NCBI RefSeq assembly: GCF_021117425.1
Contig: NZ_CP088298.1
Span: 620,001-684,000, forward strand
Origin: Brevibacterium zhoupengii
Lineage (GTDB): Bacteria; Actinomycetota; Actinomycetes; Actinomycetales; Brevibacteriaceae
Length of the DNA stretch: 64,000 bases
Direction of reading: 5' to 3'
Made by a program: the position numbers and the translations under genes. Below, one piece after another: positions 3,562 to 37,818 of the stretch; the first letter of the stretch is position 1; the number at the start of each line of letters is the position of its first letter. The notes beneath the pieces were generated by a model. That model saw only the letters and a program-made list of their open reading frames with translations. It had not been told where the DNA came from and made no database searches.

Positions 3562-5100
3562 ATGCCATTGAGCGTCTTCGATCTCTTTACCGTCGGCATC
3601 GGCCCGTCGAGTTCCCACACCGTCGGCCCGATGCGAGCGGCATCGAGCTTCCTCACACTTCTGGGCGACAAGCTGGGATCCGTTGCAAGCATCAAGGTTG
3701 ATGTCTTCGGATCCCTCGCCGCCACCGGTGCCGGACACGGCACCTTCGACGCCATCCTGATCGGCCTGGAAGGCTGTGCACCCGACGCCGTCGAAGCCAA
3801 TGAACTCACCGCCCGCCGGACCCGCATGTCCGAAACCGGGACGATCTTCCTCGGCGACGCAGTCGGGGACGGCGTCGAAATCGCCTTCACTGAGGACGAC
3901 ATGGTCAAGCGTCCCCTGACCATCAAGCCTCGCCACACGAACGCCATGACCATCACAGCCTTCGACGCCGAAGGCCAGACCCTGGCCGAAGAGACCTACT
4001 ATTCCGTCGGCGGCGGCTTCGTCACCTCCGAGACCGAGTTCGTGGAGAAGGAGCAGGCCGCCGAGGCTGCCGACGCAGCCGAATCAGTCGACGACGATTC
4101 CGTCGATGATGAGAACGATGATCCCTCGAACTCTGACGAGGTTGCCGGGGGTGATCCTGAGTTCGCCGTTGCCGACGCAGTCATCGACGCCGAGCTGCAG
4201 TCCTACAGCGAAGAGCTCCCATACCCCTTCCACTCGGCCGTCGAGCTCCTGCAGCGTTGCAAGGACAGCGACATGTCGATTGCCGAGATCATGCTCGCCA
4301 ACGAGAAGTCGATGCGCGATGAGGACGAGATCCGTCACGGCCTCCTCCACATCTACTCCGTGATGGAAGAATGCGCCTCGGCGTCTCTGGACCGTTCGGG
4401 CTACCTGCCGGGCGGGCTCAAGGTGCGCAGGCGCGCCCACGACTGGTACCTCAAGCTCAAGGCCGAGGATCCCGACCGCGACCCCGGCTACTACTTGGAG
4501 TGGGTCAACCTCATCGCCATGGCCGTCAACGAGGAGAACGCCTCGGGCGGACGCGTCGTCACCGCACCGACGAACGGTGCTGCCGGCATCATCCCCGCAG
4601 TCCTCCACTATGCACTCAACTACGTGGAGTCGGTGACCAAGGGCGGCGAAGCTGCCAAGCACGCGGCGATCGTGGACTTCCTGCTCACCTCGGCGGCGGT
4701 GGGTGTCCTCTATAAGGAGAGAGCATCCATCTCCGGCGCCGAGGTGGGCTGCCAGGGCGAGGTCGGATCCGCCTCCTCGATGGCTGCCGGGGGACTGGCC
4801 GCGATCATGGGCGGCACCCCGGAGCAGATCGAGAACGCCGCCGAGATCGCCATGGAGCACAACCTGGGCCTGACGTGCGACCCCATCTCCGGGCTCGTGC
4901 AGGTCCCCTGCATCGAACGCAACGCGATTGCGGCAGGCAAGGCCATCAACGCCTCACGGATGGCACTGTGGGGCGATGGCCAGCACCGGGTCAGCCTCGA
5001 CGAGGTGATTGAGACGATGCGCCAGACAGGTGCGGACATGAGCTCGAAGTACAAGGAGACAGCGCAGGGCGGCCTCGCCGTCAACGTCGTCGAATGCTGA
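3562..5100 (+). CDS. sdaA: L-serine ammonia-lyase, iron-sulfur type
   Basis: Deaminates L-serine to pyruvate with a [4Fe-4S] cluster. The single chain holds both domains: N-terminal [15 protein letters not shown] and C-terminal catalytic part with [13 protein letters not shown]. Cysteines at 397, 439 and 450 and a C-terminal Cys at 512 have the spacing 42, 11 and 62, the same as the three cluster ligands and the tail cysteine described for the Legionella enzyme. At 512 residues it is about 55 longer than usual, because of an Ala/Asp/Glu-rich insert at about 165-205. A GGAG sits 8 nt before the ATG. Position after gcvH fits glycine to serine to pyruvate catabolism. Confidence 0.96.
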
Positions 5101-32852: not shown

Positions 32853-33023
32853 TCTACTTGCCTATTTCGGAGTGAAGGGTCACAGAGGCACGGGAAGCGC
32901 TAAGGCGCACGGACCAGCAACGCGACTGCAACGGGACAGCAGAGTCGGAATAGAACCACGTCGAGCCGCTGTTGTCCCTGGTAACTGAACTTTTTGCTTT
33001 CTCGAACGAAGGACCGCATCGCT

Positions 33024-34007
33024 TTGTCCGTTCCACTGAATATTCTCGACCTCGTCCCTATCCGTGAAGGATCCACCGCCAGCGAAGCTATCGACACCTC
33101 GATGCAGGCCGCACGCCTGGCCGATGAGCTCGGCTACAGCCGTCTGTGGTTCGCTGAGCACCACAACACCATGGGACTGGCCGCGAGTGCGACGGCGCTG
33201 CTGATCTCCCAAGCCGCGTCGGTGACCGAGAAGATCCGTGTGGGATCAGGCGGAGTGATGTTGCCCAACCATGCTCCACTCATGGTCGCTGAGCAGTACG
33301 GAACACTGGCCAACATTCACGGCGATCGCATCGACCTGGGGTTGGGTCGCGCGCCCGGCACCGATGGAATGACAGCGCAGGCGCTCAGCCGTTCCTCGGC
33401 CGAACCGCAGTCCTTTGCCCAGAACATCTATGACATGCAGGGCTGGTTCAGCTCCGAGGGCAAGGCACATACGATGCCCATCGAATCTGCTGTCTCTGCC
33501 AACACCGAGGTTCCCATCTGGGTGCTGGGGTCGACGACGAACGGTGCCGCGATCGCCGGTCAGCTGGGGCTGCCGTTCTCTCTGGCCTCTCACTTCGCGC
33601 CCGACCAGATCGATGCAGCGATCCGCGTCTACCGCGAATCCTTCACCACCGAGGCTCCTACCGCACAGATCGACAAGCCCTACGTCATGGCTGGGATCAA
33701 TGTGCTGGTGGCCGAGACAGACGAAGAGGCCGAGCGCGAGTTCACGACAGTGAAGCAGATGTTCGCCGACATCGGCCGCGGCCGCCGCCGTCATCTCCAG
33801 CCACCCGTCGACCCGAGTGAACTCGCCGGAGGCGGAGAGAGCCCGATGCTCCGAATCAGCGCTGTCGGTTCACCGGAGACGGCAACCCGTCAGCTGTCGG
33901 AGTTCGTTGAGCGCACCGGTGCCGACGAGCTCATCACCGTCACCTACGCCTACGACCCGGCAGTGGCGGAGCGGTCCCTCAAGCTGCTCGCCGACGCTTG
34001 GTTCTGA
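33024..34007 (+). CDS. LLM-class flavin-dependent oxidoreductase
   Basis: 327 residues, luciferase-like monooxygenase, FMNH2-dependent. The first strand LNILDLVPIREGSTASEA and the block LWFAEHHNTMGLA are typical of the MsnO8 branch; GGVMLPNHAPLMVAEQY follows. I chose TTG 33024: it has GAAGGA 10 nt upstream and gives the family start MSVPL; no ATG or GTG is available nearby. It diverges from marR-MFS and may act on the compound that operon exports, which is inference. Confidence 0.87.
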   Translation: MSVPLNILDLVPIREGSTASEAIDTSMQAARLADELGYSRLWFAEHHNTMGLAASATALLISQAASVTEKIRVGSGGVMLPNHAPLMVAEQYGTLANIHGDRIDLGLGRAPGTDGMTAQALSRSSAEPQSFAQNIYDMQGWFSSEGKAHTMPIESAVSANTEVPIWVLGSTTNGAAIAGQLGLPFSLASHFAPDQIDAAIRVYRESFTTEAPTAQIDKPYVMAGINVLVAETDEEAEREFTTVKQMFADIGRGRRRHLQPPVDPSELAGGGESPMLRISAVGSPETATRQLSEFVERTGADELITVTYAYDPAVAERSLKLLADAWF

Positions 34008-34019
34008 ATAAAGGTCCTG

Positions 34020-34300
34020 CCTCACGTGCCGCACGTGTGCCGCCAATCCGGTGTCCTCTTCGGTCGGCACTCGCTTGGCGAGGCTGAATGTTCTCGCGAC
34101 GCGCGCGGCTCCACCAGCTCAACTGAACCCAGCTGGGGACGGTCAACGAGGACCAGGGTCGGGACGATCGCGACTCCAAGCCTGCGCTCGATGAACCGGA
34201 GTAATGCATCCATCTCGGCTCCTTGGACGACAACCGGATGCCATAACGTCGTCCAAAGAGAGCAAGTCGCTGCGTAGGTAGGTGGAGCGAGGACGTTTCT
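34020..34300 (-). pseudogene. Decayed 3' fragment of a lysR gene
   Basis: Minus-strand translation gives VVVQGAEMDALLRFIERRLG and VAIVPTLVLVDRPQL, matching the effector domain of the intact LysR at 36846-37799 (VVEGAEMDAVLRFVERGLG). Near 34070 the frame shifts to EEDTGLAAHVRHV, the counterpart of the LysR C-terminus. About 70 bp are missing between them. The N-terminal HTH and most of the effector domain are gone. It is a diverged paralogous remnant, not a recent copy. Confidence 0.8.
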
Positions 34301-34700
34301 AGCCGGGATCCGGACGCGCGCCGTGCTTGGAGTCACCGGCCGTACCGTGCACAACCAGACATTCGCCTGGCTTCCCTTATGCCCATATACGAAGCAACCT
34401 GCCCGCAATCGTATGTAATTGCACGGCTAAAGAGGGATGCAGAGTCTTGAAGGATGGCTAGGTTCGTCATCTCATTGAGATGCTTGTGAATGAAGAGGCC
34501 CTCTACTCCGTGCTTGTACAGGCGGTAGGGCGTATGGAAGCGCTATAGATACGCGACACATTGTGTGCAGGGATCGGATGAACTTTTCACGGCAAACAGC
34601 TGCATGCCATCCGGGATATGATCCGTTAAACGAGAGTCTCGCCGCGCTTAGAGCGTCCAAGGACCCGCGCAGGTTCCTGCAGTTGCTAATAGGAGATAGA
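34301..34700. other. Region upstream of the AIPR gene
   Basis: 400 bp that become AT-richer toward the right. A CATCTCA-T-TGAGATG dyad lies near 34467-34481 and a TATAGA hexamer near 34544. In-frame ATG 34578 and GTG 34563 could extend the AIPR protein but have poor ribosome sites. No RNA gene is visible. Confidence 0.4.
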
Positions 34701-36491
34701 GTGCACACACTAACAAGCAAGCGCGTCACTAAATTTGCCCGTGATTTCGGATTCGATGGCTCAGAGGCTGAGCTATTCGAGCGATATGTATCGGCAAACT
34801 ATCTTTTTCAGTATCTGCGCGACGATGTGCAAGCGATTGAGCGGTCTGTGTTGGGCGGTGGCAATGATGAAGGCATTGACATCGGTGCAATAGTCGTCAA
34901 TGGGCAGATTGTTTTCGAACCAGAAGAGATCGACGAACTCATTGTAGAGCAGAGTACTAACTCCGCTAAGGTGATCTTTATTCAAGCCAAGACAAGCGAA
35001 TCTTACGACTCGAAGCTCATCGCCAAATTTCTCCACGGAGTCGAGGCCGTGACGCAATACGGAATGAAGCCTGGCAGCATCAGCCTGCCGCCGAGACTTG
35101 TGGACCTTGGCAATCTTATTGACCGGATTGCTGAGAACGGTGACAAATTTCAGGACAGTCGCATTCCGTGCGAACTTTACTATGTCACTACCAGTTCGAG
35201 GGACGGCAAGAGCGCACAGTCTGAGCTTCAGGTCACGAAGGCACTTGAACGAATCCGTGAAATCGGTGCCTACTCTGAAGGTTTGGAAATGCGGACACAC
35301 GGTCATGAAGAGCTCGCTGCGAAGCAGAAGGAACGATTTGGGCCGCAGAACATCCAGTTCAATTTCGAGAAACGTCAGACAATCCCCGCCACTGCGCGCG
35401 TCAGTGAAGCCTACATCGGGTTGGTCTCCGCTTACGAGTTGATGAAGCTCCTAAAAGATGATTCAGGAGAATTCCGTTCTGGGATCTTCGACGACAACGT
35501 TCGTTTAGATCTTGGGTCGCAGAATCCAGTTAACGGTCGAATTCTGGATACTCTGGAGTCGGAAGAGAGGGAACATTTCCCATTTCTGAACAACGGACTG
35601 ACGATCATCGCTACCGAACTTCGTGGGCTTGGGGACCGATTCTTTATCTCGGGCTACCAGGTTGTCAACGGTGGGCAAACTAGTCATCAGTTGGTCAGAT
35701 GGGCGGAGACAGAGGAAGTGATGTATGACCGAGAGCTGTTAACCAATCTATGGATTCCGGTAAAAATAGTCAGCTCTACGGATCCGGGAGTTCGCACTAG
35801 CGTAGCTATCGCTACCAATCTCCAGACGGCCATTAATTCATCAGACATTCAGGCGAGTTCGCAAGTTGCTAAGAATGTCGAGGAGTACTTCGCTCAAACC
35901 GGGGCAGATGGTCTCCGATACGAGCGGCAAGGCCGTGGTGCCTCACTTGAGTTTGCACGGACTCGGGTTGTCACTACGCCCGAGCTTAATCGGGCTGTGG
36001 CGGCGACGCTTTTCGGAGACTCTTCCCGCGCGATTGCGTCACCGAAAGACCTCGAAGTGGAAGACTCTTATGTTTGGGATGACTACCCGGTCGAAGCGTA
36101 CTACTACGCGGCTTGGATCATCTATCGAATTGATCGATATTTTGCTCGTACCCCTGAATCATCAACACTCAAGGCGGCGAAATATCATATCGCGCTGGTG
36201 GTTTCCGCACTGATCAATCCGAATCTTGTGCCGCTGTTTGAGTCCGCGGACTTCGACCAGGCGAAGAGCAAGCTTAGGAGTCCGAAGAAGCTAAAATTTC
36301 GCGTTACGGAAAAGATTTTCTCGGAGCAGATTGAAGCGGCTATTGTGACCGCCGTAGAACTGGCCACAGAAGTATTTAAGATGCCCCTCGAAGAAGGGCG
36401 TAGCTTGCGCAAGGACGATGTTAGAAATAGGCGAAGCCAGGAAGCAATGTTGGAGCGAGCTAAGGCGGTTGCGAATGTTAAACCGGCTTGA
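34701..36491 (+). CDS. AIPR-family (abortive infection phage resistance) protein
   Basis: 596 residues from GTG 34701, chosen because AGGAG sits 5 nt upstream; starts at 34578 or 34563 would add 41-46 residues. The AIPR domain is clear: HFPFLNNGLTIIATEL, ISGYQVVNGGQTSHQLV and VAIATNLQTAINSSDIQAS. The N-terminal part has GNDEGIDIGAIV (Asp60) and VIFIQAKTS (Gln95, Lys97), which looks like a PD-(D/E)xK nuclease core. AIPR proteins are linked to abortive phage defence, but the mechanism here is inferred. Base composition is visibly lower in GC, with TTA codons, unlike neighbours. Confidence 0.85.
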   Translation: MHTLTSKRVTKFARDFGFDGSEAELFERYVSANYLFQYLRDDVQAIERSVLGGGNDEGIDIGAIVVNGQIVFEPEEIDELIVEQSTNSAKVIFIQAKTSESYDSKLIAKFLHGVEAVTQYGMKPGSISLPPRLVDLGNLIDRIAENGDKFQDSRIPCELYYVTTSSRDGKSAQSELQVTKALERIREIGAYSEGLEMRTHGHEELAAKQKERFGPQNIQFNFEKRQTIPATARVSEAYIGLVSAYELMKLLKDDSGEFRSGIFDDNVRLDLGSQNPVNGRILDTLESEEREHFPFLNNGLTIIATELRGLGDRFFISGYQVVNGGQTSHQLVRWAETEEVMYDRELLTNLWIPVKIVSSTDPGVRTSVAIATNLQTAINSSDIQASSQVAKNVEEYFAQTGADGLRYERQGRGASLEFARTRVVTTPELNRAVAATLFGDSSRAIASPKDLEVEDSYVWDDYPVEAYYYAAWIIYRIDRYFARTPESSTLKAAKYHIALVVSALINPNLVPLFESADFDQAKSKLRSPKKLKFRVTEKIFSEQIEAAIVTAVELATEVFKMPLEEGRSLRKDDVRNRRSQEAMLERAKAVANVKPA

Positions 36492-36845
36492 CCAAACATG
36501 CTTTGGTAGTTCAGCGCGGCGACTCAATATCCAGAGGTTGGGCAAGATCTGGACACTCCAGCAAATAGAAAATCCGTCTTAATTTCGTGGCTGTGTCTTC
36601 GAAAGCGAATTGTGCTGATATGTTTCGAGCGATTGACGTTAGTCTTAGACGGTTATTTTTTGGTTCAGTCGCCATCAGTTGATGGGCATCGCAACTGGCC
36701 TGCGTCCACGCCCGTTCGGTTCTAATGAGACCCAAAGTGGCTACACCTGATATTGAACTTCTATGTCGGGGTGAAATGAGATTAGACAAGGTAGTTCGCT
36801 CGGACTGAATGTGGAATCAGCTCAGTCCAGCTTCCGCTGGAGACC
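36492..36845. other. AT-rich stretch between AIPR gene and lysR
   Basis: 354 bp of the same lower-GC composition as the AIPR gene up to about 36790, then host-like sequence. A minus-strand frame of 92 codons (36511-36789) opens only with TTG, has no ribosome site and no recognisable motif; I do not call it. No repeat pair marking an insertion end is visible. Confidence 0.4.
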
Positions 36846-37799
36846 TCACCCAACCAGCCGCACATGCGCCGCCAGTCCGGTGTCCTCTTCGGCCAGCACT
36901 CTCGCTGTTGAGAGGATCGTTGTCTCCATCGCCGAGGCGGCCCTGGTCGGCCGTACGTCCGCTCGGGTGGCGAGGCTGACCGTGCGTGACAGGCTCGGTT
37001 CCAGCAGCTGTGCCGAGGTCAGCCGGGGCCGGTCGACGAGGACCATGGCCGGAACGATTGCGACCCCCAATCCGCGTTCGACGAAGCGCAGCACCGCGTC
37101 CATCTCGGCTCCCTCGACGACGATGTTCGGTGCCAGTCCCGCGGCATCGAAGGCCGCCGAGGTGGCTACACGCAGATCGTATCCGTGATGAAACAGCACC
37201 TGGGGGAGTGCGGCAACGTCCGCCAGAGTCACCGTGTCGCCGGGCAGAAAGTCAGCACCGCCCCGAGGTGACTCGGCCGCGGCGATGACCACGAGGTCCT
37301 CGCTGAGTACCCCCTGCATCCGCAGCCTGGGCATCTGCGCACTCGGGCTCAGCGTCCGCGTGATGAGTGCAAGGTCCAGTTCGCCGGCACCCAGCGCCTC
37401 GATGAGTTCTCGCGAGCCCTTTTCCACGAGCTCGAGCTCGACCCCGGGGTGCTCGTGATGGAAGCCGCTGATGGCCTCAGCGACCAAGCTGACGCACAAC
37501 GTCGGGGTCGCACCCAGGCGGATGCGACCCTTGCGCAGTCCCGCGAGCTCATCCATGTCACGGCGGACCGCCTCGGCGTCGGCGAGCATTCGTCGGGCAC
37601 TCGGCAACAGGGTCTCGCCCGCGGCGGTGAGACTGATGTGTCCGTGGGCGCGATGGAAGAGCTCGGAGCCGAGTTCCTTCTCCAGTGTCGAAATCTGCCG
37701 ACTCAACGACGGTTGTGCCAGGTGAAGAGTGGCGGCGGCCTTTGTGAAGTGACCCGTGTTGGCGACCTCGACGAAGCTCGCGAGCTGTTCCAGATTCAT
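36846..37799 (-). CDS. LysR-family transcriptional regulator
   Basis: 317 residues. The HTH covers about residues 1-60 (MNLEQLASFVEVANTGHF, AQPSLSRQISTLEKELG), followed by an effector-binding domain. ATG 37799 gives the usual LysR start; ATG 37805 two codons earlier would fall inside the operator dyad. The -10 TACGCT is 6 nt before 37799. It probably controls the divergent flavoprotein gene through a T-N11-A box between them. A decayed fragment of a paralogue lies at 34.0-34.3 kb. Confidence 0.92.
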   Translation of the reverse strand: MNLEQLASFVEVANTGHFTKAAATLHLAQPSLSRQISTLEKELGSELFHRAHGHISLTAAGETLLPSARRMLADAEAVRRDMDELAGLRKGRIRLGATPTLCVSLVAEAISGFHHEHPGVELELVEKGSRELIEALGAGELDLALITRTLSPSAQMPRLRMQGVLSEDLVVIAAAESPRGGADFLPGDTVTLADVAALPQVLFHHGYDLRVATSAAFDAAGLAPNIVVEGAEMDAVLRFVERGLGVAIVPAMVLVDRPRLTSAQLLEPSLSRTVSLATRADVRPTRAASAMETTILSTARVLAEEDTGLAAHVRLVG

Positions 37800-37803
37800 G
37801 ACC

Positions 37804-37818
37804 ATAGCGTATCGCTAT
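37804..37818. promoter_or_regulatory. LysR-type operator, T-N11-A dyad
   Basis: ATAGCGTATCGCTAT is a perfect inverted repeat (ATAGCG / CGCTAT around TAT) and fits T-N11-A exactly (T37805, A37817). It overlaps the lysR -10 and lies 22 bp before the -35 of the divergent gene, as expected for an autorepressed, ligand-switched LysR. Confidence 0.75.

Follow-up and report, generated by a model that had tools for sequence, protein, structure and literature searches.

A horizontally acquired AbiU/AIPR gene with a putative Mrr-type nuclease domain at a recurrent insertion spot in Brevibacterium zhoupengii

The window analysed here (the whole stretch of 64,000 nucleotides taken from contig NZ_CP088298.1 of Brevibacterium zhoupengii) contains a 2.6-kb low-GC segment (34260–36845) that stands out by composition and is absent from all other genomes sampled from the genus. 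The left border of this insertion spot is a luciferase-like monooxygenase gene on the forward strand (32994–34007; hereafter luc), which is convergent with lysR and is named for its sequence character, the profile support being a weak generic 'oxidoreductase' match only. The right border is an intact lysR-type regulator gene on the reverse strand (36846–37805), which is conserved in relatives (73–98% protein identity across those examined). A decayed lysR 3' fragment, also on the reverse strand (34022 to about 34260), adjoins the luc stop codon and is recognized by its DNA identity to the 3' end of intact lysR (45 nt at 89% plus about 160 nt at 74%). We rejected the idea that this fragment is a working second regulator, since its reading frame is broken and only the 3' part of the gene is represented. 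An AIPR gene lies between the two lysR-related sequences, alone as the first-pass annotation had described it, and no second convincing gene was found between 34260 and 36845. Scans of the window for tRNA and Rfam RNA found none, on which ground tRNA-targeted integration at the AIPR site was rejected. No integrase was seen in the insertion, and promoter and terminator scans gave no more than shuffled sequence did.

The AIPR gene is real and intact, as indicated by its open reading frame, its PADLOC AbiU and Pfam AIPR matches and purifying selection. The longest open frame around it spans 34563–36491 on the forward strand. We place the coding sequence at 34701–36491 (596 aa, GTG start) because the orthologous proteins of Amycolatopsis, Agilicoccus and Streptomyces start at MHTLT, i.e. 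at the residue matching GTG 34701, and because a Shine–Dalgarno-like AGGAGA (34691–34696, forward strand) lies 4 nt ahead of this codon. DNA similarity to the ortholog at locus L007 begins at 34692. Comparison with the orthologs gives a pS of about 0.8 (synonymous sites are saturated) with a pN of 0.14–0.25, and the protein has therefore been kept functional. The gene is visibly AT-richer than its surroundings, as first noted: its GC content is 0.511 compared to 0.632 (sd 0.018, minimum 0.574) in same-length stretches elsewhere in the window, and its GC3 is 0.550 compared to 0.70–0.88 in neighbouring genes. TTA codons are also present, though the effect is slight (2 of 50 Leu codons; zero in most neighbours).

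We then compared the distribution of the gene among relatives. An AIPR gene of any kind is present in none of 56 other congeneric genomes, a search of these congeners with the segment flanks (34260–34700 and 36492–36844) gave no match, and the gene occurs in 6 of 395 genomes of the class. Its orthologs are likewise low in GC within genomes of about 70% GC. The AIPR gene has been horizontally acquired and is of foreign origin, in agreement with the earlier view of it as a non-core gene. When five loci with close orthologs are compared, the DNA ceases to be similar at the gene ends or within about 75 nt of them; the shared unit is therefore one gene, as had been proposed. The genes near the orthologs differ: a tRNA-Arg and a caspase gene lie near that at locus L004, FtsK-like, GntR and integrase-fragment genes near that at L006, and an integrase near that at L007. 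A protein with EVE and NOV_C domains is also encoded at L006 (10087–11118), a few hundred bases downstream of the Streptomyces ortholog; EVE domains are readers of modified bases. The Actinacidiphila ortholog (L007), whose DNA is 92% identical to that of the Streptomyces ortholog, is frameshifted by a one-base deletion at about 8719, which is gene decay in one host.

The organization of the luc–lysR junction was compared in those relatives where luc and lysR could both be found next to each other. The two genes are just 15–55 nt apart in ten relatives (L044, L045, L049, L055, L057 and L060–L064), while sixteen relatives besides the window hold 0.5–9.8 kb of cargo between them. The comparison of insertion sites suggested by the first-pass annotation thus found ten empty sites and a gene that is neither core nor host-like in relatives. 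An AbiEi antitoxin-type gene stands alone at the junction in the two closest relatives (L032 and L033), a complete AbiEi–AbiEii pair is present in L041, and the cargo of L039 and L067 tentatively contains HEPN-like remnants; other cargo includes regulators, oxidoreductases, a P450-containing cluster and a GNAT gene, among others. The junction is a recurrent and generally permissive insertion spot with defence genes among its occupants. 'Defence island', the term used at first, is too strong: one defence gene lies between luc and lysR, and the other occupants of the spot are part defence and part metabolic. Because the two closest relatives hold AbiEi, it is plausible that AbiE at this junction was replaced by AbiU. 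In two further relatives the cargo likewise contains short copies of the lysR 3' end (L038, 4404–4478; the luc–lysR interval of G012, 4397–4453). These copies and that in the window (34022–34260) are possibly recombination scars at the lysR end, and a lysR 3' duplication beside inserted DNA would fit recombination at that end, whether by homologous crossover or otherwise.

A second AbiU/AIPR gene is present in the same genome (G000:C1:2777688-2779115; L070 7488-9194, reverse strand). It is more typical of the family (PADLOC E 6.9e-159) and has a local GC of about 0.46. Its flanks lie roughly 4.5 to 18 kb apart in relatives, so this is another variable site.

Several profiles place the window protein in a known family: (i) the PADLOC AbiU profile matches it nearly end to end (residues 2–522; E 1.4e-85, 286.5 bits); (ii) the Pfam AIPR profile (PF10592) matches residues 263–505 (E=5.7e-26, 92.3 bits, cut-off 25); and (iii) PHROG 1841 'Abi alpha-like' also matches. 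The AbiU/AIPR family motifs D60, K97, NNG, VNGxQT and NxQ are all present and are invariant in 21 aligned members. AIPR relatives occur on phages (e.g. Fels-2 and mycobacteriophage Thyatira), on plasmids (of Klebsiella, Staphylococcus, Lactococcus and others) and on contigs of uncultivated viruses. In the virus-contig proteins L094 and L096, Cys replaces the Gln of the catalytic motif (CKH) and there are ~100 additional C-terminal residues; these two may form a separate AIPR subfamily.

The window gene is a further member of the known AbiU/AIPR kind and not a new system. It resembles AbiU (AbiU1; PADLOC AbiU/PF10592/PHROG 1841) in its near full-length profile match, two-domain architecture and invariant motifs, but belongs to a divergent actinobacterial branch that is about 20–25% identical to virus-borne members. 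Lactococcal AbiU is a two-gene system of abiU1 and abiU2 (PMC3985639); a search for an abiU2 partner in the inserted segment found no second gene. Core similarity also links the protein to MzaE, the AIPR protein of the MZA system (E about 2e-5), but it scores 28 bits against an NCBIfam cut-off of 1050 and has no partner genes alongside. Our literature search found no phage assay for this AbiU/AIPR clade.

The N-terminal part of the protein (residues 1–214; 34701–35342, forward strand) is predicted to be an Mrr_cat-like PD-(D/E)xK domain, and this assignment as a putative nuclease is supported by profile comparison and modelling. The putative catalytic residues (34779–34991) are E27 (34779–34781), D60 (34878–34880, codon GAC), Q95 (34983–34985, CAA) and K97 (34989–34991, AAG). 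The start at GTG 34701 reproduces the numbering of Asp60 and Gln95-x-Lys97 given before. In the 21 aligned members D56, G58, D60 and K97 are invariant, while F26, E27 and Q95 are at least 90% conserved. We compared the N-domain profile, by hhalign, with an Mrr_cat profile made from Mrr_cat domains of actinobacterial genomes. The match has a probability of 94.1% (E 1.2e-7) and brings the FE, DGG[IV]D and QxK motifs into register; its score of 49.1 compares with 10.4 ± 1.6 (maximum 14.9) for a null of permuted columns, and the AIPR core region, used as a control, matched Mrr_cat with a probability of 0.3%. An AlphaFold2 model of residues 1–214 is confident (pLDDT 90, pTM 0.88) and shows a helix, three strands, helices and a strand, i.e. 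the order expected of PD-(D/E)xK enzymes. The structure prediction that had been proposed as a check therefore contains a candidate nuclease core, and conserved motif, Mrr_cat match and alpha/beta model all agree with the first-pass reading of a PD-(D/E)xK-like N-terminus joined to an AIPR core. Foldseek of the N-domain model against the PDB returned nothing significant, with no solved nuclease matched by fold, and sequence and profile searches of the PDB with the AIPR protein found nothing, and the evidence for a nuclease is therefore that of profile, motif and topology. The domain shares the FE...DGG[IV]D...QxK register with Mrr_cat (PF04471), but it lies below HMMER detection with Pfam, has a longer insertion between D60 and Q95, and is fused to an AIPR core rather than to the N-terminal domain of Mrr.

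Judged by the motif conservation across the 21 members, the fusion of nuclease-like domain and AIPR core is the normal architecture of the family. We find no support for regarding this fusion as special or new: the family is catalogued as AbiU, and a fusion of PoNe (PD-(D/E)xK) and AIPR was published in 2022 (PMC9708380). What this analysis most usefully adds is the assignment to Mrr_cat, the evidence from empty sites and the finding that transfer involves one gene.

The AIPR core and C-terminus (35343–36488, forward strand) carry the motifs NVR, FLNNG, VNGGQT and ATNxQ and are probably ParB/DndB/GmrS-like. The full-length model has a pLDDT of 83 and a pTM of 0.48, and because of the latter the domain placement is uncertain. 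In a Foldseek search of BFVD its best match is an AIPR protein; the other matches include models of GmrSD-N/DUF262, DndB ('DNA-sulfur modification-associated') and ParB/Srx proteins, with E from about 1e-3 upward for GmrSD-N, DndB and ParB and low TM-scores, the model having two domains. Against the PDB the full model gave no significant match (PadC ParB-like only, probability 0.35). The core scores 21.7 against the DndB profile compared to a null of 13.4 ± 1.9; none of 60 permutations reaches this score, but the match is weak, with a probability of 1%. A profile match between the core and DUF262 was rejected as not above chance. ParB-like defence NTPases carry a DGQHR/DGQQR motif; we looked for it in the core and found VNGGQT in its position. 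A ParB/Srx fold has been assigned to GmrS, whose DGQQR motif resembles DGQHR (PMC4619093), ParB-fold proteins bind ATP, GTP or CTP (PMC12704722), and the N-terminus of DndB was placed in the AbiU1/AIPR family in 2012 (PMC3506569). We regard a ParB-like core as likely.

The window protein may be compared with two groups. Like GmrSD, SspE and BrxU (DUF262 ParB-like NTPase plus HNH), it has a probable ParB/Srx-like core fused to a putative nuclease, and it has Foldseek matches, at low TM-scores, to GmrSD-N models; by contrast, its nuclease domain is N-terminal and of PD-(D/E)xK type whereas theirs is a C-terminal HNH, and it has VNGGQT instead of DGQQR and no significant DUF262 profile match. Foldseek matches and a weak profile match link the core to DndB, but DndB lacks a nuclease domain, and DGQHR is missing from the window core.

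Taken together, we favour, with a probability of roughly 0.6, the reading that the locus holds an acquired, intact AbiU/AIPR protein that works by itself as an effector against phage, in which a nucleotide-binding core switches an Mrr-type DNA cutter. The C-terminal ParB/DndB-like core would bind nucleotide, and probably also phage or modified nucleic acid, and so would serve as sensor and switch; DNA would then be cut by the N-terminal Mrr-type PD-(D/E)xK domain (E27, D60, Q95 and K97); and phage replication would be stopped, whether or not the cell is killed. The anti-phage activity is suggested by family and context, i.e. because of the AbiU, AIPR and PHROG matches, the homologs on phages and plasmids, and the AbiE modules at the same spot. 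Nucleotide binding is predicted from fold similarity of the core, and that the substrate is DNA is likewise presumed, as is the trigger of the protein.

A first alternative is type IV-like restriction, in which the protein would cut incoming DNA with base or backbone modifications without suicide, as do GmrSD, Mrr and SspE. The Mrr_cat-type nuclease domain agrees with it, as do the resemblance of the core to GmrSD-N and DndB, both of which are tied to DNA modification, and the EVE and NOV_C gene downstream of the Streptomyces ortholog. However, the chain has no recognized modified-base reader domain, an EVE gene accompanies just one of the orthologs, where it lies outside the conserved unit, and AbiU was historically classed as abortive infection. 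We consider this reading rather unlikely, though the strongest of the alternatives.

It is considerably less probable that the protein is a regulator or a selfish passenger, whose DndB-like core binds nucleotides and tunes another pathway while the nuclease-like domain serves for binding only. DndB does have a regulatory role (PMC4507180, PMC12704722), and the gene is solitary, with no defence partner; but the catalytic residues are conserved in essentially all members, no DndB-family gene was found in this genome, and homologs sit on phages, viral contigs and plasmids. Least credible of all is an N-terminal HEPN ribonuclease toxin that kills by cutting RNA: the AIPR N-terminus was called HEPN in a 2012 paper (PMC3506569), but that label is contradicted by the motif and topology of the window domain, which matches Mrr_cat, carries the D-QxK motifs, is modelled as alpha/beta and not all-helical, and has no Rx4–6H motif in residues 1–214 when the sequence is read through, and it is AbiU2 rather than AbiU1 that a later survey of HEPN proteins counts as HEPN.

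In the literature found, AIPR is named as a defence family with little mechanism. The reading of the window protein as a single-chain effector offers a testable combination of an Mrr-type nuclease and a ParB/DndB-like core, with named residues. The luc–lysR junction, which holds different genes in congeners, including AbiE and AbiU modules, is also tractable for studying the gain and replacement of single defence genes. We tentatively extend the reading, at clearly lower confidence than for the window protein itself, to the family: AIPR/AbiU proteins might be single-chain NTP-gated nucleases that combine a ParB-fold switch (with a divergent VNGxQT motif) with an Mrr-type nuclease, and their actinobacterial branch might spread gene by gene. 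If so, AIPR would be another nuclease-coupled branch of the ParB-fold defence NTPases, beside GmrSD and SspE, and its actinobacterial members would move through ordinary chromosomal junctions such as luc–lysR.
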